From: a virus | Virus record (IMG/VR): IMGVR_UViG_3300027907_000030 | Location: 1 to 37,352 of that record | DNA: 37,352 nucleotides | Strand: one strand, 5' to 3' | Shown here: positions 2,887 through 36,197 of the stretch, one piece after another | Position numbering within the stretch: position 1 is the stretch's first letter | Layout: the number at the start of each line of letters is the position of its first letter | Notes under the pieces: generated by a model | Seen by the model: the letters and a program-made list of their open reading frames with translations, nothing else | The model's database searches: none | Told to the model about the DNA's origin: nothing | Made by a program: the position numbers and the translations under genes

Positions 2887-5290
2887 CTTGAAGGTTGATT
2901 GTGGTAGTGATGGTACGTTTAATTCTGATGTGGCGATTGTAGCTGAAGCTCCGGGTAGTAGGGAAGTACAATTGAAAGTGCCGCTTGTTGGTGGTAGCGG
3001 ATCGCTCTTGTGGTCTACACTTAAGAAGCATCAATTACAGAGGGGTAACTTCTATATAACGAATGTAGTGAAGAGACAGCTAACATTTGGAGGATTAGAT
3101 GCGGATAAAGTGCAGTTGCCCAAAGCCGAATATGATCACTGGGTTGGATTACTCAAATGGGAATTGGCTTGTCTACCAAACTTGCGCTACGTGTTGCTAC
3201 TCGGAAACTTGGCTCTCGACGCCCTCTGTGGTCGTAAAGGCATTACGAAGTGGAGGGGCAGTGTACTTGACTTCGATATGTTCTCCCTCGCATCGAGTCA
3301 GCCACGAACTTATAAGGCTGTCGTAGCGAATAATCCCGCCGCTGTACTTAGAGAACCGAAGACTGAGATCTCATTTATAATGGACGTTGCTAAGCTGACT
3401 AAGGTGATGAGTGGGAAATGGACACCTTACGAGATAAAGGGTGAAGTTTGCTATGACTATAAAAGAGCGAAGGAAAGGATTGCGTACTACTCCGCTACTA
3501 GAAAACCTATCAGCTTTGATATCGAAACGGGAGGAGGAGAAACAGCGTGCATCGGATTGGCCGATGATAAGCATTATGGAACTTGCATTCCCTTCAGAGG
3601 TATCAGGGGTGAAGACTACTTTTCGCTCGAAGAAGAAGCTGATTTGCGAATGCGCTTGCAACAAATGTTCGCCAACGAACGACTCCGTTTTGTTGCTCAG
3701 AACGCGAACTTTGACATGTATTGGCTCTGGATTAAGGACAAGATACGGGTACATAAAGCGTGGTTCGACACCATGTTGGCACACCATTGTTTATATCCCA
3801 GTATCCCCCACGATCTTGGATATCTTTGTACACAATACACAACGCATCCGTATTATAAAGACGAAAGAGGCGAATGGAAAGATAAGGGTGACATCGACCT
3901 TTTCTGGCAGTACAATGTTAAGGACGTTTGCATTACTCTTGCGGTACAAGAGCGATTAGAAGTTGAACTTGAACAACAGAATCTGAGTAAGCTATTCTTT
4001 ACACATATAATGAAATTGCAGCAACATCTAGTAACGATGACAGTGGGAGGAGTACTGATAGATGGAGAGGAAAAGGATACGTTCAGACACGAAGTTAGAG
4101 AGACAGTTGCCCGGCTCTTACAAGAATTCCACGGAGCGGTTGCGAAAGCGACTAATGACGATCAATTTAGACCTAATCCGAGTTCATTTAGAGATCGTGC
4201 GGAGTTATACTTCAATAGACTTAGACTTGTCGGACGAGGTACATCAACGGATGCGGCAAATAGAGAAAGAATGCGCCAACATCCTAGAACTTCTGAGGAC
4301 GCACGAGAAGTACTCAGGTATCACGACGAATGGGCCAAAGAGTTCAAGTTCTTAAGTACTTATGCTGAGAGTGATATAGATGAAGATGGAAGAATGAGAT
4401 GTGAGTGGAGACAGACTGGAACGCAAGCGGCCCCCGGTCGACTAAGCAGTGCGCAAACACTACTCGGGACGGGGGCCAACTTGCAGAACCAACCAACAAA
4501 AGCAAGGAGAATGTTCGTTGCAGATGAAGGTTATGTGTTCATCTATTTTGATTTGTCACAAGCAGAAGCACGCTACGTGGCTTGGGAAGCTGAGATACCG
4601 AAGTGGAAAGAACAATTTGAAAGAGCAAGATTAGATGGAAGCTATGATTGTCATAGGGCTTTGGCAAGCGAGATGTTCAATGTCCCTTACGAAGACGTGC
4701 CTACCACTGACGAAGATGCAAGCGGAAGTAAAACGATCAGGTTCATTGCGAAGAGATGCAGGCATGGACTGAATTACAGGATGGCCCCGGAACGGTTGGC
4801 GGAGACCACGGGCCTTCCGATCCAACGAGCGCATGAGAGCTACATCATGTATCATCGCCTTACACCTGAGCTTCGTAGATGGTGGGGAACGCTTGAGAAG
4901 GAGGTACGTTCCACCCGTATGCTGTACAATGCCTTCGGCCGCCGTCTGTACGTGATGGAGCGCCTGACCGAAGATAGTATGGAGTCCATTGTTGCTTTCA
5001 AGCCTCAATCTACAATTGGAGATAAGGTCAGTCAAGTGATTTATCAATGTCACGAGGATGACAGATGGGACAGACGAAGGGAGCGAATCTGTCTGAATGT
5101 ACATGATGCACTTGTTGGATTAGCTACGGCAAGTCGGGCGAAGTCGTGTCTTCAGATTATGAAACACTACGCTGAACAACCTATACTTGTAAGGGGCGAA
5201 CAGCTAGTGATCCCTGCGGATATGGGGATGTCTGTAGCCGATGAGCAAGGGAAACATCGATGGAGTAATATAAAGAAGGTGAAATTATGA
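2828..5290 (+). CDS. Family A DNA polymerase with N-terminal UDG-like domain
   Basis: This is the replicative polymerase, 820 residues. Residues about 34-175 resemble family 4/5 uracil-DNA glycosylase: AEAPGSRE (39-46), PLVGGSGSLL (52-61), FYITNVVKR, a GITKWRG segment and NNPAAVLREP (168-177). The 3'-5' exonuclease has DIE at D231/E233, NANFD with D296, and YNVKD with Y362/D366, so proofreading residues are intact. The polymerase domain has motif A DLSQAEAR (D575), motif B with K642 and Y650 (RCRHGLNYRM), and motif C NVHDAL (H759-D760). It is larger than T7 polymerase (704 aa) because of the added front domain. GGAGAGG precedes the ATG; the stop overlaps the next gene by ATGA. The UDG-like part lacks the iron-sulphur cysteines and has Asn for the usual His, so its activity is doubtful. 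Confidence 0.95.
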   Translation: MIKSMPELQQEFLKKARSINLKVDCGSDGTFNSDVAIVAEAPGSREVQLKVPLVGGSGSLLWSTLKKHQLQRGNFYITNVVKRQLTFGGLDADKVQLPKAEYDHWVGLLKWELACLPNLRYVLLLGNLALDALCGRKGITKWRGSVLDFDMFSLASSQPRTYKAVVANNPAAVLREPKTEISFIMDVAKLTKVMSGKWTPYEIKGEVCYDYKRAKERIAYYSATRKPISFDIETGGGETACIGLADDKHYGTCIPFRGIRGEDYFSLEEEADLRMRLQQMFANERLRFVAQNANFDMYWLWIKDKIRVHKAWFDTMLAHHCLYPSIPHDLGYLCTQYTTHPYYKDERGEWKDKGDIDLFWQYNVKDVCITLAVQERLEVELEQQNLSKLFFTHIMKLQQHLVTMTVGGVLIDGEEKDTFRHEVRETVARLLQEFHGAVAKATNDDQFRPNPSSFRDRAELYFNRLRLVGRGTSTDAANRERMRQHPRTSEDAREVLRYHDEWAKEFKFLSTYAESDIDEDGRMRCEWRQTGTQAAPGRLSSAQTLLGTGANLQNQPTKARRMFVADEGYVFIYFDLSQAEARYVAWEAEIPKWKEQFERARLDGSYDCHRALASEMFNVPYEDVPTTDEDASGSKTIRFIAKRCRHGLNYRMAPERLAETTGLPIQRAHESYIMYHRLTPELRRWWGTLEKEVRSTRMLYNAFGRRLYVMERLTEDSMESIVAFKPQSTIGDKVSQVIYQCHEDDRWDRRRERICLNVHDALVGLATASRAKSCLQIMKHYAEQPILVRGEQLVIPADMGMSVADEQGKHRWSNIKKVKL

Positions 5291-5957: not shown

Positions 5958-7385
5958 ATGCTCAGTATCAGTGGCCCGAAAGATAGTTATATCGAACTCT
6001 TTATGAGTCTGCTGAAGGATCAGGAGACGCCTAGTGAGTACGACTTCTGGGCTGCTGTGTGGACGGTTGGTGCGGTAATAGGTCGTAGCTGCTTCATCGA
6101 CCGTCCACGAGCACCCATCTATTTTAATTGGTACATTATTATATGTGCCGAATCTGGTATGACACGTAAGAGTACCGTGATTAACTTCGCTAATGATATG
6201 ATAGAGGGATGCCTGCCAGAAGGAGCAGAGGTTTTACAGAATAAGACTACCCCTGAGAAATTGTGGACGCTAATGGCTAATCAAAGTGGAGAGAGAGGTA
6301 AGAGTCATGTCGTCATTAACGTATCCGAGCTTGTCACATTCTTCGGGCGAGAAGGGTATTCGATGGGTATGCCCATCTTGCTCACTGATCTTTACGATTG
6401 TCCGACTAAACGGGAAGGTGGAGGAAGTGTTAACTACGGAAGCTTACCTCTCCTTAATCCTTTCATCACATTTATCGCCGGCTCAACACCGTCATGGCTT
6501 ATACGCGCAATCAACCCAGACGTTATCGAAGGAGGATTTACATCGCGCGTTATCTTCGTGAGTAGTGAGGCGAGGAAGAAGTTGATCTTCTGGCCCGACA
6601 ATGTACATCAACCGAGCATTAAAGCTGCGAAGGAATATTTAAATGCTATTAGAGAACACGCCACTAAACTCAAGACAATCTTACCTGATGAAGAAGCGAA
6701 GAGGTTTCTTGATGCTTGGTACAGGTCTAGGAACTATAATGCGGAAACTTACCTCCGTAGCTTTGAAAGCCGCGAAGATAGCCACATTCTTCGACTTGCC
6801 GGGACGCTCGCCCTTAGCCAACTTAAGTCCCGAATTGGGATTAGTGAAGTCGAACTGGCGCTTCATGCTATATCAAGGGCAAAGAAGTCTGGTAGTCGCG
6901 TATTCAAGCAGGCGGCATTTGATCTTAAACTTACAAACGGGCTTGATAAGGTACGTGAAGTCCTCTTGAAGCGGGGACTGAATGGGATTAAGAATTGGGA
7001 GCTATATGTACAGTGTAAGTATTACTTTACGAATAGTGAGTATAATGGAGTGATGGAATTGTTGGTGGATATAGGAGCGGTGAGACAGTACATCGTGCCG
7101 ACACATACAGGTAGAAGCGGCCGCCCTTCCCGCTATTTTGTGGCGACAACGAAGATACTAAATCCGCAGAAGTGGGAAGAGATAATGCTGAGGAGCGGAA
7201 TGTCTAACGCGGCGTCTGATCCCCGCCTTCCCGAGCAGACTGATGGATTACTTTCGCTAGATTCTCGGGAGTTAATTCCCCATACTTCGACTCAAACTTC
7301 TTCCCACTCGGGCTCGTCTTCACTTGCTTCCATTGATCTTGATATATCGTATAAAGTTGACGATCCAAAGCGACGACTTTCTTAG
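5958..7385 (+). CDS. DUF3987-like P-loop ATPase, putative replicative helicase
   Basis: The 475-residue protein starts with a helical region, then AESGMTRKST (residues 64-73, K71), which fits the shortened P-loop of DUF3987 proteins. Residues 117-150 (HVVINVSELVTFFGREGY, then LLTDLYDCP) fit the Walker-B and sensor region, and FITFIAGSTPSWL with GGFTSRVIFV fits the following core. DUF3987 proteins are phage and plasmid helicase-like ATPases often fused to or beside primases, so a replicative helicase role is likely but unproven. AGGA precedes the ATG by 5 nt. It is the last rightward gene. Its final 60 or so residues (rich in S, T, L and D) are read antisense to the end of the 1416-aa leftward gene, so they may be a readthrough extension. 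Confidence 0.65.
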   Translation: MLSISGPKDSYIELFMSLLKDQETPSEYDFWAAVWTVGAVIGRSCFIDRPRAPIYFNWYIIICAESGMTRKSTVINFANDMIEGCLPEGAEVLQNKTTPEKLWTLMANQSGERGKSHVVINVSELVTFFGREGYSMGMPILLTDLYDCPTKREGGGSVNYGSLPLLNPFITFIAGSTPSWLIRAINPDVIEGGFTSRVIFVSSEARKKLIFWPDNVHQPSIKAAKEYLNAIREHATKLKTILPDEEAKRFLDAWYRSRNYNAETYLRSFESREDSHILRLAGTLALSQLKSRIGISEVELALHAISRAKKSGSRVFKQAAFDLKLTNGLDKVREVLLKRGLNGIKNWELYVQCKYYFTNSEYNGVMELLVDIGAVRQYIVPTHTGRSGRPSRYFVATTKILNPQKWEEIMLRSGMSNAASDPRLPEQTDGLLSLDSRELIPHTSTQTSSHSGSSSLASIDLDISYKVDDPKRRLS

Positions 7386-10300
7386 CCTGTTCTTGTGCTG
7401 CCTTATAGCGCATGATAGGCGATTGTGCGATAGATGGATCAGTACCGATCGTCATGGCTTCGTGACGAGAACGCTCTAGGCGGCGTTGTTCTTCTAGTTG
7501 TTTATATGGTCCAGTGAATAGCGCCTTATGAACATGTGCTATGATGACACGGACATCGGGATCGGCAACAGACGCACCGACGACAGCACCCGGAGCAACG
7601 TCAGTCTTCTCTAGTACGTTGGGTTTAGCGTGAGGCTGTAATGCCCTCCTAACTCCAGCTTCAGCGGGCATCTGTGCTTCAATGCTCTTTCTAAGGATGT
7701 CGAAGTCTTTAGCTCGCTTCTCCGCTATAGGAGTGTAGATGTAGCGACGGTTGGCATCGGGCCAGAGATGAGAGACACCCGGAGTTTGTAGTGCGATTGA
7801 AGTGCCGAGCTTCTGTGTACCGGCAACAATGCCCTTCTCTATAGTGCCACCCGGAGCGCGGGCATGGATGTCGCCAACGTTAGCGGCTTCGAGAACGGTA
7901 CCAATAGTCGTACCCATAAGTCCGGTGATCGCGTCATACCACGCATGAGGAATACGAGATTGCGGAGACATCATATCTTTATTCACACCGGCGAATTGCG
8001 GTTGGCGGATGTCTGTAACGGGTGATGATCCTCCTAACAACTTCCCAGGTTCGGCCTTCTTGCCATATGCGCCTAAGATAGATTGAGCGATAGGCGGTGT
8101 TGCGAGACCGAAGACCTGATCTCGTGCGTGCTCCATGTCATCGCCAAGAGACGGAGGAATGACGACATCAGGATTCTTAACGAGGCCGAGTGCGCGTGCT
8201 CCATGAATGAAGGGGAGAATGAAGAGCATCATCTCTGGCGGTACGGGGACGAGAATGTTTTCTTGTTCGGGCGTTCCTTGTGGAATGTTCATGCCTGCTT
8301 GACGTGCGAGATAACGGAATGGATCTGGAAATGGTACATTCTTTATTCGTGTCTCGTTAGGTAGTTGATTGAAGTACCAATCGTTGCTCTCTTTATCTTT
8401 ACCTACTTGGTTATAGGCCCATGCGGCTACGAGGCCAAAGGACATGAGACGAGTGATGTTCTCTACGGGTGCCTCCTTGATGCGTTGCTTTAAATAGCGA
8501 AGAGCTTGGATATTAGGATTAAACCACGGCATCATAGAGACGATTCGTTGTATCCACGGATTACCACTAATGCGGGCCATATCACCACCGACTATTCTAG
8601 CTTGATCGGCAATGAATGCTTCACTCATATACTTAGCTTGCTGGCGTCCTTTAGCTATCTCACGTTTATAGAGTTTTAAGTTCTGCGATAGGGCCATCTG
8701 CTTAGGGACATCTAACCACACCTGTAACATTGATAAGTAGTTATTGGCCCCCGACTTCCACGCGGGACGCTTCTGTGTGATTGAGTTGATGTTACGTATC
8801 AGCGTCAACACATCATCACTGGCATTGGCGACGTGACCTGCCTTCATTGTCTTAGTGAGATTGGTCATAGAGGCATCGTAGGCTTTAGACATAGCCTGAG
8901 CGACGCCACCTAGTAATTGCTGTGCTCCCGGTATCTTCCCTATACCTGTATTCTTAGCGAGATCTACCTCAATCTTTTTAGCGAGTATATTCCCGAAGAA
9001 TTCTGAGGCGGTCGATTTGATAAGGTAGTATGGATAGGAAGCGAAGACGTTGATAGCTGCTTCTGGTCCTGCTAATAGAGCACTAATGATACGAGCTTTA
9101 GGACTGCCCATACCGAATGTGCGATGAGCCAAATAACTGATGGGTCCGTAAGCCATGCTCTTATGACGGAGTAAGGAACCAGCAATGATATCATAGACGT
9201 TACTGACTAAGAGGCCAAATTTCGGATTACCCGCTCCCGTAGTCCATGAGGTTAGTACTTTACGGGACTCATTAAGGATGGGCACAACTGCTGCTGGAGC
9301 GAACTTAAGTGCTTCTTGAATATGCTTCTCGTTATGTCTGACTAATACGAGACTGCCGTTCTCCCCTCTGTATGCGTAGTGGAAACCCTCATTATTGTTA
9401 GCGGTCTTGTTGACCTTACTCTCCACCCACTTAATGTTCTGAGGTATCTCGTTCTCTGGTATTGTCTTAACGATATCGAGATACTTCTTATTAGCGTTGC
9501 CCGGTGAGTTCATCATCATTTCAGTGTAGTCACGCATCGCTCTGTTTTGAGAGGCTGCCTGACGAACACGAAGGTCCATGTGGGCTAGTTCTTGGAACGG
9601 ATCGCGAGGATTGTTGATGCGAGGATGTGGTTCGAAGCCGGGAGCAGGAGTGTAACGCGATTCGCCTTTAGTATTGACGTAGCCCTTTCTTACACGTTCG
9701 CGATTGGCAGCACGATAGAGACTAAGGACGGCAGCAGGATCGCTATTGGCGATGTGGGGACTCTCCACCATCTGCTTCTCTACCCAATGCTGCCCTCTCT
9801 CTATCCATGTCTTCTGTGCTAATGGATTATCGGTAAGGTGATAGTTACCTTTACGGACATCTAGCTTCGCGCGTGCAGCTTCTGCCGCAGACATCGCGCC
9901 GCTTGAAGCCGCCTCATCAAATGTAGTATCGAAGAGACGCTGTATCTGTCCTTCTACGTTACGGATGCGAGGATCGTTTCTAGATTGTGCGAGACGAGCA
10001 CGCACAGTAGCGGCGTCATCGTTCATAATAGAGTGACGGAGATTAGGATCAGTATCGGCTATGCGGGCTTGTCGCTCCATTTGGAGTTCGCCCGCTTTAG
10101 TTTGTAGCTCTTGAATACGTGCTGCTGTAGCTCGCCCTCTCGGTCCTGTAGCTTTTTGTAGATCGGCCAATGTTTCATTAAGTTCATTAGTAGTACGGGC
10201 TAATGCTTCCGTATCGCCCCATGAACGATACGTATCTGCGAAATGTTGTGAGGCTTTGTTAATAAAGGTTGGATCTTCTCTGGCGAATTGCTCTACGACG

Positions 10301-11454
10301 GGAGCCACTTTCTGCTGCATAAAGATGTCGTGGTCGGCTTTAGCCATACCTCGAGCATTGCGTGCAGTGTCCGTCATGAAAGAAGTAAGTTCGTCGTCAG
10401 TTAGTCCGACTCCTTTACCCATTACTCTAAAGGGTTCAATGTCGCTACCTAAGTTGGCAGCATTCATCTTAATCGGATTAACAGTAGGAGTAACCGCCTG
10501 TTGCATCGTTTGTACGGTTGGTCCCGCAGATACAGGTTTGATCTTTGGAGAGATAACGTTAGCGAGACGACGTGCAGCAAGACCGGCCATGATGGTGCCA
10601 ATGACGCCAGTAGCACCTATTCTTGTAACATCTGCCGAGCCATCATCTTGAGTATAGAAGTCTTTAACACTGTTAACTGTATCGGCGACAACAGAAGGCT
10701 CACCTTTATACGCCCTAGAGGCTTGATCAACTGCTGCTGGGATTGCAATGTTTGCTCCCACTCTCGCTGCGACTCCTGTTGCTGTAGCTCCGGGGGGAAT
10801 AATGGTAACTGGTGTGACTGCTTCTGCGACATTGAGACCTATTCTCCCTGCTTTAGTAGCAGCAATTGATGCTAATCCTCTACCAAAGGCACCAGTACCG
10901 CTAGTGATCGCTCCAATACCGCGAGTCGGAGCAGCACTACCAGCAATGTTCATTAATGTATCGGCTTGTGTACGTTCAGGAGGGAGGCGAGGATCACCGA
11001 AGAATTCGTTAGTACCTTGTCCCCACCTACGAGCGAATGCCATTCCCTGTCGATAGAATGGAGTAGTCTCTTCGTAGTAGCGTTTAGAGTGTTTCTGTAT
11101 TTCGTCGAAACGTTGTTGTATCTCTTCAGGAGATGCGTTAGGACGAGCCCGCTTTACGTCGTCCATGACCTTCTGATTATATTCGGCAAGTTTCTGTTCA
11201 CCACCTTCTGGATCGAGCAAGTGTTGTGCGAAACCTTTAGGAGCTTCCCCACTAGCAGGAGGACGAACACGCTCCATTAAATAGTCAGTACCCGCGGCCC
11301 CCAATCCCCACAGACCAGCAAACGAACCCGGTGTATCTGCGAAGCCAATAGCACCCTGTCGTGCCATCCACTTAAGATAGCCCTCGTCGGGACCACGCGC
11401 CTCTCCTGTATCCTTTCCTTCCTTATCGCGAATGATGATTTTATCTTCAGCCAT
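7204..11454 (-). CDS. Giant internal virion / DNA-ejection protein (1416 aa)
   Basis: This is the last and largest leftward gene, in the place where T7-like phages put the giant ejected core protein (gp16). The N-terminus is soluble and charged, then a Gly/Ala-rich, weakly hydrophobic segment (about 165-300) could insert in a membrane. A coiled-coil-like stretch follows (about 420-480). Around residues 900-1080 is a region ending MMPWFNPNIQALRYLKQRI, which resembles the LPD38 polyvalent-protein domain and similar modules of large phage ejection proteins. The C-terminus KFESKYGELTPENLAKVIH looks genuine. No lysozyme motif is visible; the transglycosylase is a separate gene. The ATG follows the upstream TAA by 2 nt with no clear ribosome site, so coupling is likely. 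The function is inferred from size and order. Confidence 0.65.
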   Translation of the reverse strand: MAEDKIIIRDKEGKDTGEARGPDEGYLKWMARQGAIGFADTPGSFAGLWGLGAAGTDYLMERVRPPASGEAPKGFAQHLLDPEGGEQKLAEYNQKVMDDVKRARPNASPEEIQQRFDEIQKHSKRYYEETTPFYRQGMAFARRWGQGTNEFFGDPRLPPERTQADTLMNIAGSAAPTRGIGAITSGTGAFGRGLASIAATKAGRIGLNVAEAVTPVTIIPPGATATGVAARVGANIAIPAAVDQASRAYKGEPSVVADTVNSVKDFYTQDDGSADVTRIGATGVIGTIMAGLAARRLANVISPKIKPVSAGPTVQTMQQAVTPTVNPIKMNAANLGSDIEPFRVMGKGVGLTDDELTSFMTDTARNARGMAKADHDIFMQQKVAPVVEQFAREDPTFINKASQHFADTYRSWGDTEALARTTNELNETLADLQKATGPRGRATAARIQELQTKAGELQMERQARIADTDPNLRHSIMNDDAATVRARLAQSRNDPRIRNVEGQIQRLFDTTFDEAASSGAMSAAEAARAKLDVRKGNYHLTDNPLAQKTWIERGQHWVEKQMVESPHIANSDPAAVLSLYRAANRERVRKGYVNTKGESRYTPAPGFEPHPRINNPRDPFQELAHMDLRVRQAASQNRAMRDYTEMMMNSPGNANKKYLDIVKTIPENEIPQNIKWVESKVNKTANNNEGFHYAYRGENGSLVLVRHNEKHIQEALKFAPAAVVPILNESRKVLTSWTTGAGNPKFGLLVSNVYDIIAGSLLRHKSMAYGPISYLAHRTFGMGSPKARIISALLAGPEAAINVFASYPYYLIKSTASEFFGNILAKKIEVDLAKNTGIGKIPGAQQLLGGVAQAMSKAYDASMTNLTKTMKAGHVANASDDVLTLIRNINSITQKRPAWKSGANNYLSMLQVWLDVPKQMALSQNLKLYKREIAKGRQQAKYMSEAFIADQARIVGGDMARISGNPWIQRIVSMMPWFNPNIQALRYLKQRIKEAPVENITRLMSFGLVAAWAYNQVGKDKESNDWYFNQLPNETRIKNVPFPDPFRYLARQAGMNIPQGTPEQENILVPVPPEMMLFILPFIHGARALGLVKNPDVVIPPSLGDDMEHARDQVFGLATPPIAQSILGAYGKKAEPGKLLGGSSPVTDIRQPQFAGVNKDMMSPQSRIPHAWYDAITGLMGTTIGTVLEAANVGDIHARAPGGTIEKGIVAGTQKLGTSIALQTPGVSHLWPDANRRYIYTPIAEKRAKDFDILRKSIEAQMPAEAGVRRALQPHAKPNVLEKTDVAPGAVVGASVADPDVRVIIAHVHKALFTGPYKQLEEQRRLERSRHEAMTIGTDPSIAQSPIMRYKAAQEQAKKVVALDRQLYTIYQDQWKQVKTSPSGKKFESKYGELTPENLAKVIHQSAREGGDQTPR

Positions 11455-11456
11455 TA

Positions 11457-11987
11457 TTAATAGCCATCAGGATTTGGGTTACTGACTGTAGGCGTCTCAG
11501 GATTAGGAGATAGTGGTGATGGATACTTAATAGGAGCAACTTCTTGGCCGATTGGTACAAATATCTTGTGTGGTCCCATAGTAACCAACTCATGTGTCTT
11601 AGCAATATCCATCGGATTTGGTACACCGATGCCCATCTCTTTCGCCGTTGCTTGATCAGCAGGAAACGAACCACGCGGGAAGCGGAAGTTCTTCTCGGCT
11701 GCTTGCTTAGTGATTTGCCATTGCCTAAGTCGCTCTGCAACGCGAGCATTCTGTCCAGCTTGTGATGCACTAGCAATACCTTCACGCGATCTACGATCAA
11801 GCTCGCCTTCTTTAGCTCGTTCTGCTCTAGTCATCTCTTGTATTAAGAGACGATTCTTCATCTCTTCTCTAGAGAGTTGATGCTTGGATGCGTCTGCTGC
11901 ATACAACTCAGCCCATGAATAGGGATCACGTTGCGGACCCATCGCTTTGACGAGTGCGAGTGGATCAAAACTGCTGTCGCCAGCCAT
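11457..11987 (-). CDS. Hypothetical internal-virion cluster protein (176 aa)
   Basis: No family is recognised. Residues 35-95 are helical and charged (REEMKNRLLIQEMTRAERA and onward), resembling the coiled coils of small internal core proteins; the C-terminus is Pro/Asn-rich (PLSPNPETPTVSNPNPDGY). AGGAG sits 7 nt before the ATG on the minus strand, and the start overlaps the preceding stop as TAATG. It lies between a 339-aa Gly-rich protein and the 1416-aa giant, matching the position of an internal core protein. There is no signal peptide or membrane segment. Confidence 0.6.
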   Translation of the reverse strand: MAGDSSFDPLALVKAMGPQRDPYSWAELYAADASKHQLSREEMKNRLLIQEMTRAERAKEGELDRRSREGIASASQAGQNARVAERLRQWQITKQAAEKNFRFPRGSFPADQATAKEMGIGVPNPMDIAKTHELVTMGPHKIFVPIGQEVAPIKYPSPLSPNPETPTVSNPNPDGY

Positions 11988-13000
11988 TATGGTGCTCCTG
12001 CGAATGAGCCACTGCTACGACGATTACGTTCATCGTCGCTCATCTGATCGAATAGATTATAGCCACCACCACCCTCAGAGAACATGTTACGCTGGCCCGA
12101 CATATTACGCATGAAGCCTTGACCTGCTGCACCGATAGCACCAGCGAGGTTAGCGTAGCCATAATTGGGTGCTTGATATGGCAACCGTCCCCCTTCCATC
12201 ATCGCAGCTTTAAGTCCGCCACTCTGATCACGAGATGCCATCTGTGATAGACCGCCAGAGTCGATAGGTGTTGGTGAGAACGATGCCTCTGGAGAAGCTG
12301 AAGCACGAGTTGCAAATAGATTATACAAGTTAGCTTCCATCTTATTCTCTTGATCCGCTAGTTGTGGAGCAAGAGATAAGGCTTGTGTTCTGGCTGCTCC
12401 ACCGATATTGCCCAACTCCTTACCACGTTGTCGAGCAATCTCAGAGAGGATGCCACTAGGATTACTGCCAGTCCTTAGAGCTTGTCGAGAAGCTATCTTC
12501 GCCGTATCATCGAAGGCGCGATTAGTACCCGTACCTTGAGCATTAGTGATAAGATGCTCCAACTCTGTAGCAGTTGGAGTTGTAGTGTGCTTCATCTCAT
12601 CGAACAGTGCTCGAGCTTTATCGCGTTCCTGTATCTGTTGATTAACGTTATACTGCATCTGACGACGCTTAGTGGCAACGTCGCCAAACTGCGCCATCTT
12701 CTCAGCATCTTCGCGCTGCATTAACGCTTTAGTAGCGGGGGCGGCCTCCTGAACCCAACCTTGTCCCGGTACGAAGCGAGTAGTGTTACCTTTAATGTCC
12801 GTCATACCGAGGTCTTGCTTAGACTCGATACGACTTGCCTCTATACGTGCTTGATATCGTTCACGTTCCCTCGCGTAGTAATTCATCAACGCGATGGACC
12901 AGTTCGTATTAGCAGTGTATTTCTGTGCGTCAGCGGCAATAGACGCACCAACGATGCTGCCTACAGCACCAAACGCGCCGCCTAACATACCGCCCATCAT
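11987..13000 (-). CDS. Putative internal virion protein with Gly-rich N-terminus
   Basis: The N-terminus (MMGGMLGGAFGAVGSIVGAS) is a glycine-zipper-like hydrophobic stretch, common in phage internal proteins that act at membranes during DNA ejection. The middle (about 45-150) is long, helical and Gln/Arg/Glu-rich. The end is Gly/Ser/Asn-rich and finishes MSDDERNRRSSGSFAGAP, closely like the tail of the next gene. An ATG at 13006 also exists, but AAGG abuts it directly; the ATG at 13000 has that AAGG 6 nt upstream and is preferred. It follows the 369-aa gene with a 2-nt gap from the stop to the upper ATG. Function by position only. Confidence 0.6.
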   Translation of the reverse strand: MMGGMLGGAFGAVGSIVGASIAADAQKYTANTNWSIALMNYYARERERYQARIEASRIESKQDLGMTDIKGNTTRFVPGQGWVQEAAPATKALMQREDAEKMAQFGDVATKRRQMQYNVNQQIQERDKARALFDEMKHTTTPTATELEHLITNAQGTGTNRAFDDTAKIASRQALRTGSNPSGILSEIARQRGKELGNIGGAARTQALSLAPQLADQENKMEANLYNLFATRASASPEASFSPTPIDSGGLSQMASRDQSGGLKAAMMEGGRLPYQAPNYGYANLAGAIGAAGQGFMRNMSGQRNMFSEGGGGYNLFDQMSDDERNRRSSGSFAGAP

Positions 13001-13008
13001 TTCCATCC

Positions 13009-14109
13009 TTAGAACGCTCCTACGCTGCCCGCAGTTCGACGCTTCTCTTCTTCACTCATAGCGTCTTGCAATGAAGCAGCGCCGGGATTAATCGCGCCTT
13101 GAGCCTTACCACCCTTAGCAATGAATGCTTCTGGATCGAAGAATTCAGTAGAGCCAAAGGCGTTACGCAACTTGCCTTCCAGTCCCCCAGTGAAAGCAGA
13201 GGCGCCAGACTTAATCTTACTAGTATAAGAAGTAGGATCATATTGATCACCGAAGTCCCAATTCGTTATACCTTGGCGAGCCTGCTTGTCGATGTCCTTA
13301 AGGGATTGCCGTCCGGTTTCCAGAACGCCCATTCCCATCTCATTACCGCGAGCAATCGCACCCGCACGTTGGTTCTGTAGAGCGGTACTAGCAGTGTTAA
13401 AGCCGACGTCATTCAAAGTACCGCGAGCCTTAGCACGATTGAGATAGTCGGAAGCCTCGTTGTACTGACCACCAACGATCGCTTCAATGAGAGCATCGTC
13501 AGCGGTGTCTGGGATGTAAGTGGATTCGAAACCGGTAGGTACTTCTGCTTCGTAACCACGAGTCAACTTACTACGGTTCTGTGTTCGGATATCTCCGAGA
13601 GTGTTTTCCCACAAGTCCGTCCCGAGATATGTACCGGGGCTAGGATCGAGATTCGGGATGTTACCCTTGGCCTTATTAAGTGCGTTCTCGTAAGCACTCA
13701 TAATACCGTAGTCGTCGTTGACGCCCATAGTGCGGAGTTTGTTGGCACCATAGTCCTTAGCGAGTGAGTAAGCGCCGCCAACACGAGACTGGAAGTCAGC
13801 AGTATCGCGAGTAAGTTTATCTGCTGCTTGTTGATCAGCGAGAGCTTTAGCGTCTGCTGCGATCTTGGCTCGATGGTCTTCCAAGTCCATCTGAGCTTTA
13901 GCTTCAGCCTGCGGATCGGGAGGCGGCGGTGATTGCGGCTGTCCCCCGCCACCACTTCCTGCGTTCAACACCTCACCATCATCATCACGAACGCTAGGCT
14001 CTCTACGATCCCGATAATCATTAGGATGACTACGAGGATCATCGTATAGAGGTTCACTCTCTTCGTCCTTACGACGCTTGACCTGATCGATCATCCATGC
14101 TGGCAGCAT
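13009..14109 (-). CDS. Putative internal virion protein (366 aa)
   Basis: The protein has an acidic, basic and Pro/Gly-rich N-terminal 80 residues likely disordered, a helical Ala/Gln/Lys-rich segment (about 70-110), then a mixed domain, and ends MSEEEKRRTAGSVGAF, a tail shared with the neighbour. ATG 14118 is in frame but its AAAGG abuts it; ATG 14109 (MLPAWMIDQ) has the same AAAGG 9 nt upstream and is preferred. The first about 40 nt overlap the 3' end of the GNAT gene. The place after tail fibre and acetyltransferase genes and before three similar proteins suggests part of the internal core or ejection apparatus. No known domain is recognised. Confidence 0.6.
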   Translation of the reverse strand: MLPAWMIDQVKRRKDEESEPLYDDPRSHPNDYRDRREPSVRDDDGEVLNAGSGGGGQPQSPPPPDPQAEAKAQMDLEDHRAKIAADAKALADQQAADKLTRDTADFQSRVGGAYSLAKDYGANKLRTMGVNDDYGIMSAYENALNKAKGNIPNLDPSPGTYLGTDLWENTLGDIRTQNRSKLTRGYEAEVPTGFESTYIPDTADDALIEAIVGGQYNEASDYLNRAKARGTLNDVGFNTASTALQNQRAGAIARGNEMGMGVLETGRQSLKDIDKQARQGITNWDFGDQYDPTSYTSKIKSGASAFTGGLEGKLRNAFGSTEFFDPEAFIAKGGKAQGAINPGAASLQDAMSEEEKRRTAGSVGAF

Positions 14110-14650
14110 TGTTGACATCCTTTACAAAATACGCTCCAGCCTCTCTGAAGCCGAGCTTTTGAGACATCTTAGCGAAGAGACGAACTTGCTTATCAGAGTG
14201 CTTATCGCGAATGATATCTACGATAAAGCGAACACAGCCTCGTAAAGCGCCCCATTGCAGGAACTGCTTTAGTAATAGGAAGGCAACAGGGCTACCCCTG
14301 TATTGTTTGTCTACATACCACACACTACTAATGGCGAACTTGTCGGTGGAGATGAAGAAGCTATTCACATAACCGATGAAGAACCCGACAGGCTCACCTT
14401 CTCTGTATGCTGCCCATCCATTATATGTCATACGTTCGGGGTCACTCATCTTATAATCAGCATGTCTAAGAATAGCTTTCATATCGAAGTCTTGATGGGG
14501 GACAAGTTCTTGATGAGCCTTTCTAAAGAGAGGTTCTAATACGTATAAGTCATCTTTAGTTAGCATTTCGCGAATGTCGTACCACGACCCTGCACGCTTG
14601 AGGCGTTCAAGACGACGCTGTTTGTGACTAACTTCATTTTGCTGTAGCAA
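14069..14650 (-). CDS. GNAT family N-acetyltransferase, TTG start
   Basis: The 193-residue protein has a GNAT outline: an initial strand YDIREML, helix DDLYVLEPLFRKAHQELV, strand GWAAYREGEPVGFFIGYV, the acetyl-CoA motif region ISSVWYVDKQYRGSPVAFLL (108-126, with the R-G-x-x-x-A turn), and the C-terminal MSQKLGFREAGAYFVKDV. Such enzymes transfer acetyl from acetyl-CoA to an amine; the substrate is unknown. Homologous small GNATs beside tail genes are known in podoviruses. The only ATG in frame would delete the first strand. A TTG at 14650 has GGAGG 6 nt upstream and keeps that strand, so I choose it. The gene starts within the last 17 nt of the fibre gene and overlaps the next gene. Confidence 0.8.
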   Translation of the reverse strand: MLQQNEVSHKQRRLERLKRAGSWYDIREMLTKDDLYVLEPLFRKAHQELVPHQDFDMKAILRHADYKMSDPERMTYNGWAAYREGEPVGFFIGYVNSFFISTDKFAISSVWYVDKQYRGSPVAFLLLKQFLQWGALRGCVRFIVDIIRDKHSDKQVRLFAKMSQKLGFREAGAYFVKDVNNAASMDDRSGQAS

Positions 14651-17198
14651 GTTTGGCCTCCAATGATTCGATGCGAGACATTGCTTCTTGTAGTGCTTTG
14701 GTAAGTGCAGCGATAATAGGGAATGGATCAGGAGATTGCACCATTCCCTTTTGGTCTTTCTCACCAGTTGCTGCACTCTTAACAAGCGACGATTGTAATT
14801 CGTGTGCAGAGAAACCCCATCTCTCTATACCATCGTCAGCAATAAATGGTCGGCCTTCTTTCTTCGCGGCTTCTTCTAGTTCGGGAGGCGTATACTCCCG
14901 ATGCTTATAGCTGATTGGCTTTAGTGACTTAACGCGATCCCACATGCTGTCGAGAAGTCTGATGTCCTTCTTAATACGGTAGTCGGAGACAAGGCCCATA
15001 TTGGCAACGTAGACACCACCAATACGAACAGCGAAGCCACCACTAGCGTCGCCCCAGTTGAATGTCCACGTATAAGCACCAGTATCGCCACCTATTGTGC
15101 TGTGATAACCATTAGGACAATATACAGTACCGCCGTCAATTACTTCTATGTTTGTATGAAATTTAACGTGGTTTCCAAGACCTGCTAACGTAGTGACATC
15201 AAGATGCGGATAATTTACCATGAAACGAAAATCGTAGTCGGAAGCTGAACCGATAGTCTTCATATCCATGGCTTGCGGGCCTTCAATCCAGCCCACTTTA
15301 ATGCCACCATCAGTCTGTAATCCTCCAGCGTTACCGGTACAACTCCCATTAACATTACCATTGAGCGTACCGTTAAATGTACCACTAAACGTAGGTGCGT
15401 TCACATTAGCAGCGAAACCAGTATTGCCATTAGTGTCGATGATCATACATTGACGGCCAGCACTCTCATCCCAGATACCGAAGCTGCCCCAGTTCACTGT
15501 ACCTACAGCCCAAGAGCGCACTCCTTCTACTGTGGTATAGAAACGAGCGTGCCAGTATGAAGGCACGGTACATCTTATTCCGTCAGACCAGTGAGATTGT
15601 ATGACATTAGCATCAATATTGTTACCGACGGCCAGACTAGCATCTACGGTGAGGCCACCGAATATACGAGATGATCCATTAGCAAAGTATGCGTAGTTAG
15701 CTGCACCGTTGGCGTATTGCATATAAATAGGATTACCGCCAACAGCCCTGACAAGGAGATTAGCGCCATCACTCATCATACCAGTAGTCACGTTACTACC
15801 GATAGCGATACCGCCTGAAGACTTAAGGCTGTTATTAGCAACGACGTCGTGTTGGAATACTGCATCGTTGGTAAGACGTTGTAGAGTGAGTATCGAACCA
15901 AGATAAGTGCCAGCATCGTTGTAGTGATGCCAGTTCATATCTCCACCGGGTTCACAACGAACGAGCCACCTTGCTTGTCCTCCTATCTGATACCAAAGAT
16001 CAGAGTTGTTTGCATGATTAATAGTGAGACTGGGAACGGTTAGCGGTCCCGTCATAACGTCGCCGGTAATGTCGACAACGAATGCAGTTAGATCATCGAC
16101 ATACTTTTTAGTAGCAATGTGGAGATCGGAAGTGGGAGGAGTTACCGTGATCTTACCAGTAGCACCATCGACAATAAGGGCATTAGTGCCAGTACCAGCA
16201 GACCAAATTCTAAGTGTATCCGGCGACGCATCTCCTGTACCAAGGAAGAAGCGATCAGTAACAGTAGATGTACTATAATAGGTTCCTGCACCCGGAGTAG
16301 AGTATGACCAATGACCTGTTTTAGTAAAGGTCATCGCTCCCGTCATAGTGTCGCCAGCTTTAGCTACCTTCTCCGTATCGAGTTCGTAGATAGCGTTCTG
16401 CATATTGGTAGATGAGATGCCACCAGCAGGAACGATTGGAAGCGTAGCGGCATTCGTTACAGCAACGGGTATCCACGCGCCATCTACTCCATCATAAGTG
16501 CGTCCGTAAGTGGCAGCATTAACAGGAGGTTCTTCGATGATGCCTTGAGGACCAACTTCGCCTTGTGGTCCTTGTGCACCAGTTTCGCCTATTGGACCTT
16601 GAATACCAACAGGTCCAATAGGTCCAGTTGCTCCACGCTCACCACTAACACTCAGTAACCAATCACTATGCGTACCTGACCCACTAGCGACGTCTACATC
16701 GACAGTTAGTGTATTCTCTGTATAGGAGACGATAGCACCCCACATGTAATCGACGGTAGGATTAGCGGCACTATTAATGATGATCTTCCCACCGGGATTA
16801 AAGATGCGTCCTGTCTGTGTCTGAAATACCTTAGTATCTAGACCAATAGCAACTGCCGTATTCGATGTGCCACTAAGAGCCTGAATGAAGTCGATAGCGT
16901 GCCAATAGTTAGGATGAGCAGTGCGATCCTGTGCGAATGTAGTAGGAGCGGGAGAGCTAGTGTGCTGAACGAAGCACTCGAATGCGAATGCGACATCAAC
17001 GTCGACAACGCGATCACCCACATTGTAAAGTTCGTTGTTCTTCCAGATACCCTTTAGCGAGTCCGTACCTGTCATTAGATACAAGATGGTGTCTACTGTC
17101 TTAATATTGCGATCGTAGTAGACATGCCAACCCGGAAAGTCGAATTGGGGAATCTCGAAGTCGAAGTACTTCGTCGTTTCTCGAACTGCGCCGCTCAT
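14634..17198 (-). CDS. Tail fibre with collagen-like repeat and S74 chaperone domain
   Basis: The 854-residue fibre starts with a virion-attachment region. Residues 50-103 form an aromatic module (IWKNNELYNVGDRV with a later HTS and YW) resembling small carbohydrate-binding modules and repeated in the nozzle. Residues 186-219 are 11 Gly-X-Y triplets that should trimerise as a collagen-like shaft. Repeats such as AKAGDTMTG and DLHIATKKYVDD, plus a YNDAGT module, make the shaft. The C-terminus (from S738) has SDYRIKKDI and GFSAHEL, the intramolecular chaperone auto-processing (peptidase S74) domain, with the S738-D739 and K743 dyad region present and a coiled-coil end. After trimerisation this domain normally cleaves itself off. 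GGAAGAG lies 5 nt from the ATG, which overlaps the nozzle stop as ATGA. It likely binds the host receptor. Confidence 0.9.
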   Translation of the reverse strand: MSGAVRETTKYFDFEIPQFDFPGWHVYYDRNIKTVDTILYLMTGTDSLKGIWKNNELYNVGDRVVDVDVAFAFECFVQHTSSPAPTTFAQDRTAHPNYWHAIDFIQALSGTSNTAVAIGLDTKVFQTQTGRIFNPGGKIIINSAANPTVDYMWGAIVSYTENTLTVDVDVASGSGTHSDWLLSVSGERGATGPIGPVGIQGPIGETGAQGPQGEVGPQGIIEEPPVNAATYGRTYDGVDGAWIPVAVTNAATLPIVPAGGISSTNMQNAIYELDTEKVAKAGDTMTGAMTFTKTGHWSYSTPGAGTYYSTSTVTDRFFLGTGDASPDTLRIWSAGTGTNALIVDGATGKITVTPPTSDLHIATKKYVDDLTAFVVDITGDVMTGPLTVPSLTINHANNSDLWYQIGGQARWLVRCEPGGDMNWHHYNDAGTYLGSILTLQRLTNDAVFQHDVVANNSLKSSGGIAIGSNVTTGMMSDGANLLVRAVGGNPIYMQYANGAANYAYFANGSSRIFGGLTVDASLAVGNNIDANVIQSHWSDGIRCTVPSYWHARFYTTVEGVRSWAVGTVNWGSFGIWDESAGRQCMIIDTNGNTGFAANVNAPTFSGTFNGTLNGNVNGSCTGNAGGLQTDGGIKVGWIEGPQAMDMKTIGSASDYDFRFMVNYPHLDVTTLAGLGNHVKFHTNIEVIDGGTVYCPNGYHSTIGGDTGAYTWTFNWGDASGGFAVRIGGVYVANMGLVSDYRIKKDIRLLDSMWDRVKSLKPISYKHREYTPPELEEAAKKEGRPFIADDGIERWGFSAHELQSSLVKSAATGEKDQKGMVQSPDPFPIIAALTKALQEAMSRIESLEAKLATAK

Positions 17199-19534
17199 CG
17201 ATCTCTTCCTACTATTTTATAACCGAAGATAAAGGCGACGAAACGAAGTGGGAGTGTGACGGCCCCTTGGATACGGAGTTTGAATAGTTTACCGCGACAT
17301 TCGAAAGGCCAAGGACGCTGACGAATAGCGAGGCGACCGGTACCGTAAGATTGTTCATAGACACCGTAGCCACCTTCATCACCAGCAACCATATCCATAC
17401 TCAATTGCGGTGTACGTTCGCCAGTCAGCTTATGCTTATAGTAATAGTCGAGATACATCTGTACAGTGAAATGACCACGTCCTTTAGCATCAACGTTGAT
17501 CGTCTTTGAAATCTTAGTTAGATCACGTTTATCGAAGTCGGCCCATGGGAATTCGATAACGAAGTTGATTGGCTTACCTTCATACAGATCCCAGTTGTAG
17601 GGATACGTCTCTCTGTCGAGTTCAAAGGTACCTGACGCACGAGATGTATGGGCGACGAGGCAAGTGAAGACTTCGTTAGTATCATTGTCTTTAACACGCT
17701 TCCCTACTGTGTAGGCGGCGTTGTTAGTCCATATAGTGTCAAATTCGCCCTTAAAGTCCGCGTAGATAGGATCGAAGCGGTTGCCCATTCGCCAGACTTT
17801 ACCATACTTAGCAAGAAACACCCGGCCATATAGCGACGTCGTGCCGCACGAGAAATTCCAACCACGGTAGCGAGACCAAGCTTTAATCTTTAGTGACTTA
17901 TTATAGGTTAGGGCATAAGCTGTAGTCTCGGTCCTTATACGTATAATGTCTACGTCATCTCCGCCCCAGTTCTTCGCCTCTACGATAGTGTTGAGAATAT
18001 CGAAAGTGATAACGTTGTCGGTAACGACTGTCTTCACTACACATGGATTAGGAAGGTCGACTAGATTACGTGTCAGACTTGTTAGTCTAAAGAGGTCGCC
18101 TTCTTCCATACCATGATTAGGCGTATTAAGGACGGCTCGGGTAGTTCCGACTAGCTCTTGTAGATAGTAGATAGGATCGTTCGGTAATCGCGTAGGAACG
18201 TCATCGTGATTAGGGGCAAATAGGATATAACGGTTGTCGTGAGTACTGTAGACACTGAAGATATCGCGCTCTAATGTCTTCGCTGTGAGACGAGAGATAT
18301 TCTTCTGTATCATAGGGGCGATGAATTCACTCATCCGAGAAGGGATGATAGAACTGTCGAATTGAGATTTAGCGAAACTGGGAACGCCGATAGGATCGGC
18401 CATCACGAGATCAAAACCGAGAAAGACCATGCTCTTATGTGCAATCGCTCCATGACGAGCAACGCTATCTGACGTCTCTGGTCGATGCTTCAATCCGTCG
18501 AAAATGCCCAATTCGACCATCGCTACCGTATCATCGAATGCGACTGCGAGCAGATTGCGAAACTTATTAATCCCGCGGATATAGATGCTCGAACTGTTCG
18601 TATTGTTTAGTTCGATGCCTGTGCCATCGTTGTCGTTTTCATCTGCCGGATTCTGCCATACGCCTTCTGCGTCGGTTGCGCTAATATGCACCTTATACGG
18701 TAGGATGGGATCGCCCGCCATGACGAGCCATCTATCGAGTGTGCAGACGTATCTACAAATAGGCACATTGATGTTAGTGAAACTGTTACCGGGATCACCT
18801 AAGTAGTTTGTATTAGGTGTCTTGCTAAAGTCGATGAGCAGAGGCTTATCTACACCGTTGACTGCGATCAACTTGCCTTTAAAGATAGCTGTCGATACGT
18901 AGTCGATAGGCGAAGACCAGCCCGGTCCACCACCATTAGTCGGTAGTGTGAATGCTATAGAACTATCCCATATACGTGTAACGGTCATAGCTGCGTTAAT
19001 CTTAACTACTTCTCCAACAGTGTCGAATGCGACGAGATGATCGCTATAATAGACGACTTCGATGATGTCTCCTGCTAGATAATGTGTATCCTTAGTGAGT
19101 GTCTTCGGCCCTGTATCACTACTCGTTACGGAAGCCGGGCTATACATCGCTACTCTGAAGTTATTAGCGTCGATGACGCGAACACCGAGCGGCTTACCAA
19201 TAATCTGTGTGCTATTGAGGCCCAACATATTATTCCAGCCAGCAGTGAACGTTACGTGATCACCACTATATAGTCCGTGTGATGCGTAACTACAGACGAG
19301 TTCACGCTGGCCGATTGTCCAGTTGATAGTAAAAGTAACCGTACCTGTGAGTACGCTGCCACGACGCAAGTCCGCAAATAACTCAGTACCCCACCTCACG
19401 CTCAACGTATTATCAACACCTCTGTGGATGTTATCCAGAACGGGTTGAAACGTTGCGGACAAGTTAAGATCGTCGTCAACTACGTTGAGCCCCCCACTGA
19501 AATCACGAACGATAGTAGACTTAAGAGGAGCCAT
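17195..19534 (-). CDS. Tail tubular protein B-like nozzle protein
   Basis: The 779-residue protein begins VRDFSGGLNVVDDDLNLSAT and contains DNIHRGVDNTLSVRWGTELF, the pattern of T7 gp12-type nozzle proteins in which an N-terminal GG-L segment and a later N-x-R-x-G element open a beta-propeller. The rest is beta-rich with repeated Y/W and D/N turns. It follows tail tube A directly, as in T7. Residues 599-652 (IWTNNAAYTVGKRVKDND and onward, with HTS and W) form an aromatic module that also occurs in the S74 fibre. Such a module probably sits on the outer face and may touch the cell surface. The start overlaps the preceding stop as TAATG and the stop overlaps the fibre start as ATGA. Confidence 0.85.
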   Translation of the reverse strand: MAPLKSTIVRDFSGGLNVVDDDLNLSATFQPVLDNIHRGVDNTLSVRWGTELFADLRRGSVLTGTVTFTINWTIGQRELVCSYASHGLYSGDHVTFTAGWNNMLGLNSTQIIGKPLGVRVIDANNFRVAMYSPASVTSSDTGPKTLTKDTHYLAGDIIEVVYYSDHLVAFDTVGEVVKINAAMTVTRIWDSSIAFTLPTNGGGPGWSSPIDYVSTAIFKGKLIAVNGVDKPLLIDFSKTPNTNYLGDPGNSFTNINVPICRYVCTLDRWLVMAGDPILPYKVHISATDAEGVWQNPADENDNDGTGIELNNTNSSSIYIRGINKFRNLLAVAFDDTVAMVELGIFDGLKHRPETSDSVARHGAIAHKSMVFLGFDLVMADPIGVPSFAKSQFDSSIIPSRMSEFIAPMIQKNISRLTAKTLERDIFSVYSTHDNRYILFAPNHDDVPTRLPNDPIYYLQELVGTTRAVLNTPNHGMEEGDLFRLTSLTRNLVDLPNPCVVKTVVTDNVITFDILNTIVEAKNWGGDDVDIIRIRTETTAYALTYNKSLKIKAWSRYRGWNFSCGTTSLYGRVFLAKYGKVWRMGNRFDPIYADFKGEFDTIWTNNAAYTVGKRVKDNDTNEVFTCLVAHTSRASGTFELDRETYPYNWDLYEGKPINFVIEFPWADFDKRDLTKISKTINVDAKGRGHFTVQMYLDYYYKHKLTGERTPQLSMDMVAGDEGGYGVYEQSYGTGRLAIRQRPWPFECRGKLFKLRIQGAVTLPLRFVAFIFGYKIVGRDR

Positions 19535-20169
19535 TAATTAGTCATCCAGTCAGTGAATGGAGACGAGGCAGGAGCACCGAATGGGATCGGTCCCTTATTC
19601 ATCGCTTCACGTAGCTGCGCCTCTCTCTTAGCTGTAGCCTCTTGGAATTTCTTAATCGCATTGGGTGCATCTTCATCGTCAGCGAGATAGCTGAATGCAG
19701 TTGCACAGACGAGAAGATCGTCATCGAGCTTGACCTGATCGTCGGCCAGGAATGGAGGCGGCTTCGTTCTATATGTAACGGTTACGTGCCCCGTTGTAGT
19801 GACGGGCCATATACGGAATAACTTGTCGCTAGGTACAGTTTCGTAGAACCTACGATACGTTACCACATTAAGCTGTGGCGGCATAGCTGGTAATGGAGTG
19901 GTTTCATTCTCATACCAGATAAATCTGATATCATCAGTTCTCTTAATCTTCTGTGTTAGATCTTCAATTACCTCACCAGTCAGTCCATTTAGCGTAAACA
20001 CTTCTCGATTAGTCGTATACGTAGGCCACCAGTAGTGGTCGAAGAAGACGTTAAATTGTCGCTGAAGGATAGCCGCGATTGTGTCTTCTGCATACTGCTG
20101 TACAGAGACGCCGGGTTCTTGCCTTAACTCGACAAGAGTGCGAAAGACGAGATCGTGGAAAGCGGTCAT
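19534..20169 (-). CDS. Tail tubular protein A-like adaptor
   Basis: The protein (about 211 aa) has a helical N-terminus (FHDLVFRTLVELRQEPG and AEDTIAAILQRQFNVFFDHYWWP), a central beta-rich part that includes REVFTLNGLTGEV and RIWP, and a C-terminal helix KFQEATAKREAQLREAM. This matches T7 gp11-like ring adaptors that join the portal to the nozzle; T7 gp11 is 196 aa. The position between head genes and the nozzle agrees. Three possible starts lie in a row (GTG 20175, ATG 20172, ATG 20169); GAGG at 20175-20178 is spaced 5 nt from ATG 20169, so I use that. A long hairpin at 20187-20218 precedes the gene and could control it. Confidence 0.8.
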   Translation of the reverse strand: MTAFHDLVFRTLVELRQEPGVSVQQYAEDTIAAILQRQFNVFFDHYWWPTYTTNREVFTLNGLTGEVIEDLTQKIKRTDDIRFIWYENETTPLPAMPPQLNVVTYRRFYETVPSDKLFRIWPVTTTGHVTVTYRTKPPPFLADDQVKLDDDLLVCATAFSYLADDEDAPNAIKKFQEATAKREAQLREAMNKGPIPFGAPASSPFTDWMTN

Positions 20170-20186
20170 CATCACCTCTAAGAGAG

Positions 20187-36143: not shown

Positions 36144-36155
36144 ATCGGATGGCCC

Positions 36156-36197
36156 ATATAAAGAGGGCGTCACTCTTACGGGGGAGAAGTGACGCCC
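36156..36197 (-). terminator. Intrinsic terminator-like hairpin after leader gene
   Basis: GGGCGTCACT (36197-36188 on the minus strand) pairs with AGTGACGCCC (36174-36165) in a perfect 10-bp GC-rich stem with a 13-nt loop, then TCTTTATAT, then GGG. The stem lies about 28 nt after the stop of the leader gene. This should end or reduce the short leader transcript. The tail CTTTATATGGG matches the one at 27550. Confidence 0.7.

Follow-up and report, generated by a model that had tools for sequence, protein, structure and literature searches.

The stretch of DNA analysed here, called the window throughout, is an IMG/VR virus record of 37,352 bases and derives from an uncultivated short-tailed phage. 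Its structural genes are located on the minus strand and run from the terminase over the portal to the four genes P2, P1, P3 and P4:

25391-26971, minus strand: terminase large subunit (Terminase_6N)
23124-25391, minus strand: portal (P22_portal, E 6.9e-12)
after the portal, minus strand: proteins of 327 aa (22169-23152) and 318 aa (21213-22169) in the usual places of scaffold and coat, putatively assigned from gene order
19534-20175, minus strand: SU10-type adaptor (SU10_adaptor, E 2.8e-8)
next in order, minus strand: 779-aa tail protein, preceding the 854-aa tail protein
next in order, minus strand: 854-aa tail protein with collagen-like repeats and an S74 chaperone
14069..14785, minus strand: GNAT-fold acetyltransferase-like protein (PF00583, E 7.5e-8; PHROG 1249, E 1.7e-16)
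13009..14118, minus strand: P2, 369 aa, belonging to a phage protein family that is all-helical and undescribed; putatively an ejection protein inside the virion
11987..13006, minus strand: P1, 339 aa, with a hydrophobic Gly/Ala-rich N-terminus and a helical body, putative internal virion protein
11457..11987, minus strand: P3, 176 aa, following P1 in the cluster, with an acidic/aromatic end
7204..11454, minus strand: P4, 1416 aa, large and last of the cluster, in the position of T7 gp16 and P22 gp16

Small proteins are encoded between the 327-aa/318-aa pair and the adaptor. The gene of the GNAT-like protein sits between the tail fibre gene and P2; its mechanical ORF shares 152 bases with the tail fibre gene, and its real start is probably situated further inside this ORF. 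It possibly holds the place of P22 gene 14 and T7 gene 13, the position whose product has been named IVPA (PMC10386132), and is a candidate equivalent. The order P2-P1-P3-P4, ending in a very large ORF, was found in the window as well as in its relatives and is that of the ejection-protein cluster of short-tailed phages. From this gene order, which is the sole ground for their location, we infer that P1 and P2 are internal proteins of the virion.

Some further observations were made along the window and its relatives. Weak matches to the carbohydrate-binding module CBM_5_12, under the curated cut-off, occur in the neighbouring tail proteins (17195-19534 and 14634-17198, minus strand). A single 820-aa ORF (2828-5290, plus strand) has an N-terminal uracil-DNA glycosylase-like domain (E 1.3e-12) and also 3'-5' exonuclease and family A DNA polymerase domains, and the product of 34125-36173 (minus strand; 682 aa), distant from the ejection-type cluster, has a lytic transglycosylase (SLT) domain at its N-terminus. 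Many distant relatives have P2 and P1 separated by a gene of about 150 aa (L021:5687-6139; L038:4447-4896; L040:5813-6265); the C-terminal end of its product resembles that of the upstream GNAT-like protein, of which it may be a second copy.

Like the genes of T7 gp14/gp15/gp16 and P22 gp7/gp20/gp16 (PMC8954989), the cluster adjoins tail genes. Its members are the GNAT-like protein, the mid-size P2 and P1, both helical, the small P3 and the very large P4; a P22-like portal is encoded in the same genome, and the hydrophobic N-terminus of P1 is as the membrane-inserting gp14 would suggest. Comparison of P2 and P1 with these T7 and P22 proteins gave no accepted PHROG, Pfam or PDB-sequence match, and the folds were unmatched as well. 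Since these families diverge strongly, the missing homology is weak evidence.

The P2 family comprises 76 distinct members, which were gathered by body-based scans and by a blind DNA pattern for the tail, and it has no accepted match in Pfam, PHROG, PDB or BFVD. In 50,697 phage records, tblastn detected no named relative with P1, P2 or any of five distant members of the P2 family as query, and protein-derived patterns revealed none in the GTDB genomes. In Paenibacillus phage API480, which gave the best terminase match, two genes of similar size precede a 1631-aa ORF; they were ruled out, as neither the P1 nor the P2 profile matches and the tail is absent. The family of P1 has 49 distinct members, and P1 itself matches PHROG 2867 ('virion structural protein') weakly (E 9e-5). 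No match to P4 was obtained in PHROG or Pfam.

The first-pass annotation had noted that P1 and P2, although different in their bodies, share a C-terminal tail, and it took this tail for a docking or packaging signal or for the trace of an old duplication. Its span of 11990-13059 begins at the end of P1 and closes where the P2 tail starts, and the ORFs and tails of both proteins agree exactly with its quotation:

13012..13059, minus strand: C-terminal tail of P2, MSEEEKRRTAGSVGAF, with the core R-x-x-G-x-x-G-[AV]-F-COOH at 13012-13038
11990..12043, minus strand: C-terminal tail of P1, MSDDERNRRSSGSFAGAP, in which the subclade motif ends at GSF (12002-12010)

The tail of P2 carries a signature of its family, R-[G/T/S]-[L/A/S]-G-x-x-G-[A/V]-F-COOH, in which Arg, the two Gly and Phe vary little or not at all; the C-terminal Phe is present in all 76 members. 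The 67-sequence P2 alignment has just five invariant columns, two of which (Gly364 and Phe369) fall within the last six residues. The last nine columns rank first among 353 nine-column windows of this alignment (mean entropy 0.73 bits) and follow a stretch which, with 2.79 bits, is among the least conserved. Because many members had come in via the tail, the ranking was redone with members found by their body, where the last nine columns rank 8th of 354 windows. Within the 22 members detected without using the tail, 20 carry R-x-x-G-x-x-G-[AV]-F; L042 (TSAGSGGVF) and L022 (EAVGDSISF) deviate but retain the Phe end. The expectation that the tails stay conserved while the bodies vary is therefore borne out for P2. 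For P1 it fails at the family level, as the 49 homologues have no common ending.

The blind DNA pattern, R-G-[L/F]-G-x-x-G-[A/V]-F followed by TRR, detects only members with RG[L/F]G and TTC and was applied to 2.9 million viral contigs and to 84,980 bacterial and archaeal species genomes. It matched 70 viral contigs, ten of them with TGG and 60 with a stop codon at the last position, and a profile without the tail assigns all of the latter to the P2 family (E at most 6.5e-31). None of the 37 stop-ended matches in the bacterial and archaeal genomes falls into it; these are mostly short chance frames. Where the motif is found internal to other proteins, the occurrences are chance ones only. The tail was not found on further proteins of the cluster and its surroundings: P4 and the tail fibre end otherwise, and so does P3, whose relatives end in DPYD or DGY. 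Among 713 other C-termini (at least 150 aa), ends of the type G-x(0-3)-G-[AVSI]-[FYW] were limited to two P1 sequences and one chance ORF. The P2 tail is one of the most conserved parts of its large undescribed family.

The likeness of the P1 end to the P2 end exceeds chance. Local alignment of the two gives a score of 45, which was never reached in 20,000 shuffles of the P1 tail (mean 15.9, sd 3.5), and 665 control C-termini scored 29 at most against the P2 tail; these controls, real C-termini of further ORFs (150 aa or more), stem from the same fetched loci and include mechanical ORFs. The likeness also stretches further upstream than had been written, with GGYNLFDQMSDDERNRRSSGS in P1 and GAASLQDAMSEEEK-RRTAGS in P2. 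The bodies do differ: BLASTP gives a best E of 0.18, and that match is the tail, while the profile-profile comparison likewise aligns the tails only and is not significant (probability 2.3%).

How far this likeness extends can be followed in the subclade of the window, a sample of eight genomes that are not phylogenetically independent. In five of the eight, the P1 tail scores above all 665 controls against the subclade P2 tails; the remaining three are in the control range, L002 at its edge and L006 and L009 indistinguishable from controls. A P2-tail profile built from outside the subclade does not recognize the P1 tails (E above 1). Within the subclade, the P1 tail has its own motif, L-[WF]-x-x-[MI]-x-D..R-x-R-x3-G-[SA]-F, from which L009 deviates and which is preceded by a region of variable length. 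Outside the subclade this motif was recognized in one further relative only, L042, whose P1 is 31% identical to that of the window and carries GGGLFGRTADRVRAGGGIY. The L042 tail scores 42 against the subclade P1 tails (control maximum 36) and 19 against P2 tails, to which it shows no resemblance. The P1 tail is thus real and kept locally, unlike the family-wide signature of P2.

These results bear on a reading in which the P1 tail would be an independent charged helix with a Gly-rich end, so that only the P2 tail is a signal and no site is shared. The reading is restricted to P1 and leaves room for docking by P2. It is favoured by the P1 family, which has no tail in common with P2, by the varying lengths of the P1 tail and by the three subclade members in the control range. 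Against it stand the five members above every control, and also the persistence of the P1 motif as far as L042. We regard it as a serious contender, with a chance somewhat short of even. The suggestion of a docking or packaging signal thus remains a good reading of the P2 tail, while a docking site common to P1 and P2 appears possible within the subclade of the window, to which its plausibility is limited.

Structure prediction fits a tail that is free to bind elsewhere. The AF2 model of P2, calculated with the 67-sequence alignment, has an all-helical body (residues about 64-340, pLDDT above 90) and a disordered N-terminal part. In its tail, the helix 345-362 stays below a pLDDT of 60 and the last 5 residues, below 50, are disordered; the tail is predicted to be flexible and so free to dock. 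For P1, the AF2 model (mean pLDDT 69, pTM 0.34) consists of helices and one beta hairpin at 75-87, and its low-confidence C-terminal third ends in a short tail helix (318-329). Foldseek found no match to P2 with E below 0.001 in PDB and BFVD, and the best VIA-align hit of P2 was a designed helical bundle with Z 9.0, a level expected by chance from long helices.

We propose that P2, as an internal protein, docks by its terminal peptide and that the look-alike in P1 may bind at this site or at a similar one, a proposal in which we place an evenly balanced confidence. P2 would be a helical protein of the internal (ejection) set of the virion, whose last 9 residues, R-x-x-G-x-x-G-[AV]-F-COOH, sit after a variable, flexible and often charged linker. 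The anatomy is that of a docking motif, because conservation reaches to the last carboxylate, follows a variable flexible linker and is confined to one family. The free carboxyl of the C-terminal Phe, together with the invariant Gly and Arg, would be accommodated by a pocket of some fixed component of the particle; the scaffold, the coat, the portal or another internal protein are candidates for this partner. The tail would thereby bring about the incorporation of P2 during assembly or keep the protein in position. The P1 of the subclade would represent a shorter version of the same design, an amphipathic L-W-x-x-M-x-D..R-x-R helix followed by G-S-F, and here both proteins may use one site or similar ones. 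The location in the virion is suggested by gene order, and docking, its partner and any sharing of a site are putative.

A conserved terminus could have other uses as well, namely folding, self-assembly or a channel formed after ejection. The main rival to docking in assembly is a role in the ejection channel, in which the tail would be a self-assembly or ejectosome element that docks onto a neighbouring P2, P1, P3 or P4 for the post-ejection channel. In T7, five positively charged C-terminal residues of gp16 are needed for infectivity, and the ends of gp15 and gp16 rearrange after ejection (PMC8954989). P2 is long and, according to its model, helical, as expected for a channel former, and the tail of P1 is P2-like only where P1 directly follows P2, with another gene intervening in many distant relatives. 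The single-chain model of P2, in contrast, shows no tail packed onto the body, although with low confidence. Altogether we consider such a channel role to be unlikely, with a modest probability left to it.

An explanation at the nucleotide level also has to be weighed against the docking reading, since the ends of both genes overlap with ribosome-binding sites:

13017..13020, minus strand: Shine-Dalgarno-like GGAG in the Gly-Ala codons (GGA GCG) of the P2 tail; the ATG of P1 (13006) follows after 10 nt
11995..11999, minus strand: AGGAG, Shine-Dalgarno sequence of P3, whose ATG (11987) follows after 7 nt; translated within P1 as Ala-Gly-Ala
11990..12001, minus strand: AGAP extension of P1, the translated leader of P3 (GCA GGA GCA CCA TAATG)

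The two ends could be alike simply because both encode the Shine-Dalgarno sequence of the next gene, where GGA GNN is read as Gly-Ala or Gly-Val, and the peptides would then have no function. For the extreme end of P1 this fits well. P1 ends with GGC TCA TTC GCA GGA GCA CCA TAATGG, the ATG of P3 overlapping its stop codon. In two subclade genomes the stop codon comes right after GSF, namely in L002 (GGATCGTTT TAA GGGAGCCAACAATGG; L002:5928-6000) and in L006 (GGTTCATTC TAA GGAGTTCTCTAATGG; L006:1010-1090); there the leader is untranslated, GGGAG/GGAG is located 3' of the P1 stop and AGAP is absent. In L008, where P1 ends with FANVP, GGAG is likewise 3' of the stop. At the P1/P3 junction (window 11987-12010) the leader is accordingly translated as AGAP or AGVP in some genomes and untranslated in others. 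Because L002 and L006 stop right after GSF with the same leader untranslated, AGAP is best read from these sequences as a four-codon extension, in which a shift of the stop codon made the P3 leader coding; the change may have occurred in either direction. The final G-A, which had been counted among the common elements of the tails, therefore has to be dropped: AGAP of P1 does not correspond to the GAF of P2, for which GSF is the better match.

The rest of the likeness does not follow from this overlap. At the last Gly of P2, the GGA codon is indeed enriched (42 of 76 members, compared to 17% of the Gly codons in the bodies). However, the Shine-Dalgarno sequence accounts for the last Gly-Ala only, and the score of the two tails is still 44 of 45 once the final residues are removed; the Arg, the first Gly and the Phe of the P2 tail fall outside GGAG. 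GAF is kept in L126, L131, L132 and L137-L139, although the codon is GGT and the next ATG is 42 nt downstream, in members using GGC, and in subclade genomes whose next start follows at a distance of 17-28 nt. Since the synonymous codons for R, G, L and G of the P2 tail vary freely and GAF persists where no Shine-Dalgarno sequence is needed, the tail peptide itself appears to be selected, with the ribosome-binding site laid over it. As the sole cause, the Shine-Dalgarno sequence is refuted, since it fits AGAP and the GGA bias and not the remainder; likeness of the ends without any protein function is very improbable.

Old whole-gene paralogy of P1 and P2, with bodies diverged past recognition, has next to no probability and we reject it: a true tandem P2 copy of 429 aa directly after the 312-aa P2 in L009 (L009:2761-4988; 33% identity; tails KRSSGSQGAF and QRTSGGQGAF both kept; unique to L009 among the fetched genomes) does prove that duplication occurs at this place, but P1 is unlike this duplicate, in that no similarity of its body to P2 is found by BLASTP or profile-profile comparison, neither profile ever recruits the family of the other, the hydrophobic N-terminus of P1 is absent from P2, the models differ with the beta hairpin 75-87 in P1, and the tails are alike in one subclade only whereas common descent predicts family-wide likeness, so that the proposed old duplication with divergence is left without support.

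For the docking reading, several known systems offer parallels. Short aromatic docking tails are exemplified by the bacterial SSB protein, in which a conserved C-terminal Phe follows a flexible charged linker; sequence, protein and context differ from those of the P2 tail, and the comparison is an analogy only. The internal proteins of phage T4 have a capsid targeting sequence as their sole common element (PMC3012670). It is N-terminal, and the first 10 residues of IpIII suffice (PMC8402733). As in T4, where the signal serves encapsidation into the core, a short terminal signal would be found here on otherwise different proteins. The P2 tail, in contrast, is C-terminal with an invariant last Phe, and is ancient in one family and only local in the neighbour; the ends of P1 and P2 are alike, above all controls, in the five of eight subclade genomes and not family-wide.

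Cargo proteins of encapsulins bind the shell by a disordered, conserved C-terminal targeting peptide, for example GSLxIGSLK in the DyP cargo (PMC10960027). The P2 tail has the same anatomy of a conserved peptide after a flexible C-terminal linker. Like the encapsulin peptide it is Gly/Ser-rich and hydrophobic, and encapsulin shells share the HK97 fold with phage coats. The sequence is a different one, since P2, a phage protein, lacks the GSLxIGSLK consensus and has R-[GTS]-[LAS]-G-x-x-G-[AV]-F with a free C-terminal Phe. In P22, gp7 and gp20 are thought to enter procapsids via their N-terminal parts; the ejection proteins have their own site each in the assembling particle, their recruitment depends on the scaffold, and their final location is not settled (PMC8402733). 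By this analogy a C-terminal signal would not be the rule, which counts against docking by the P2 tail. A more specific version, in which R-G-L-G-S-x-G-A-F-COOH would be the docking code of an undescribed class of ejection proteins and the P1 look-alike of the subclade would share its site in the head, is in our opinion distinctly doubtful.

Since the nine-residue peptide alone identifies the whole family, it represents an easy handle for reporter fusions, single-residue mutations and docking prediction. The tail motif is also a simple genome-mining key to a family of putative virion proteins which is absent from current profile libraries. If the reading of a shared site is true, two different cargo proteins would use one site in the head of this phage, and the tail would be the C-terminal counterpart of the T4 capsid targeting sequence.
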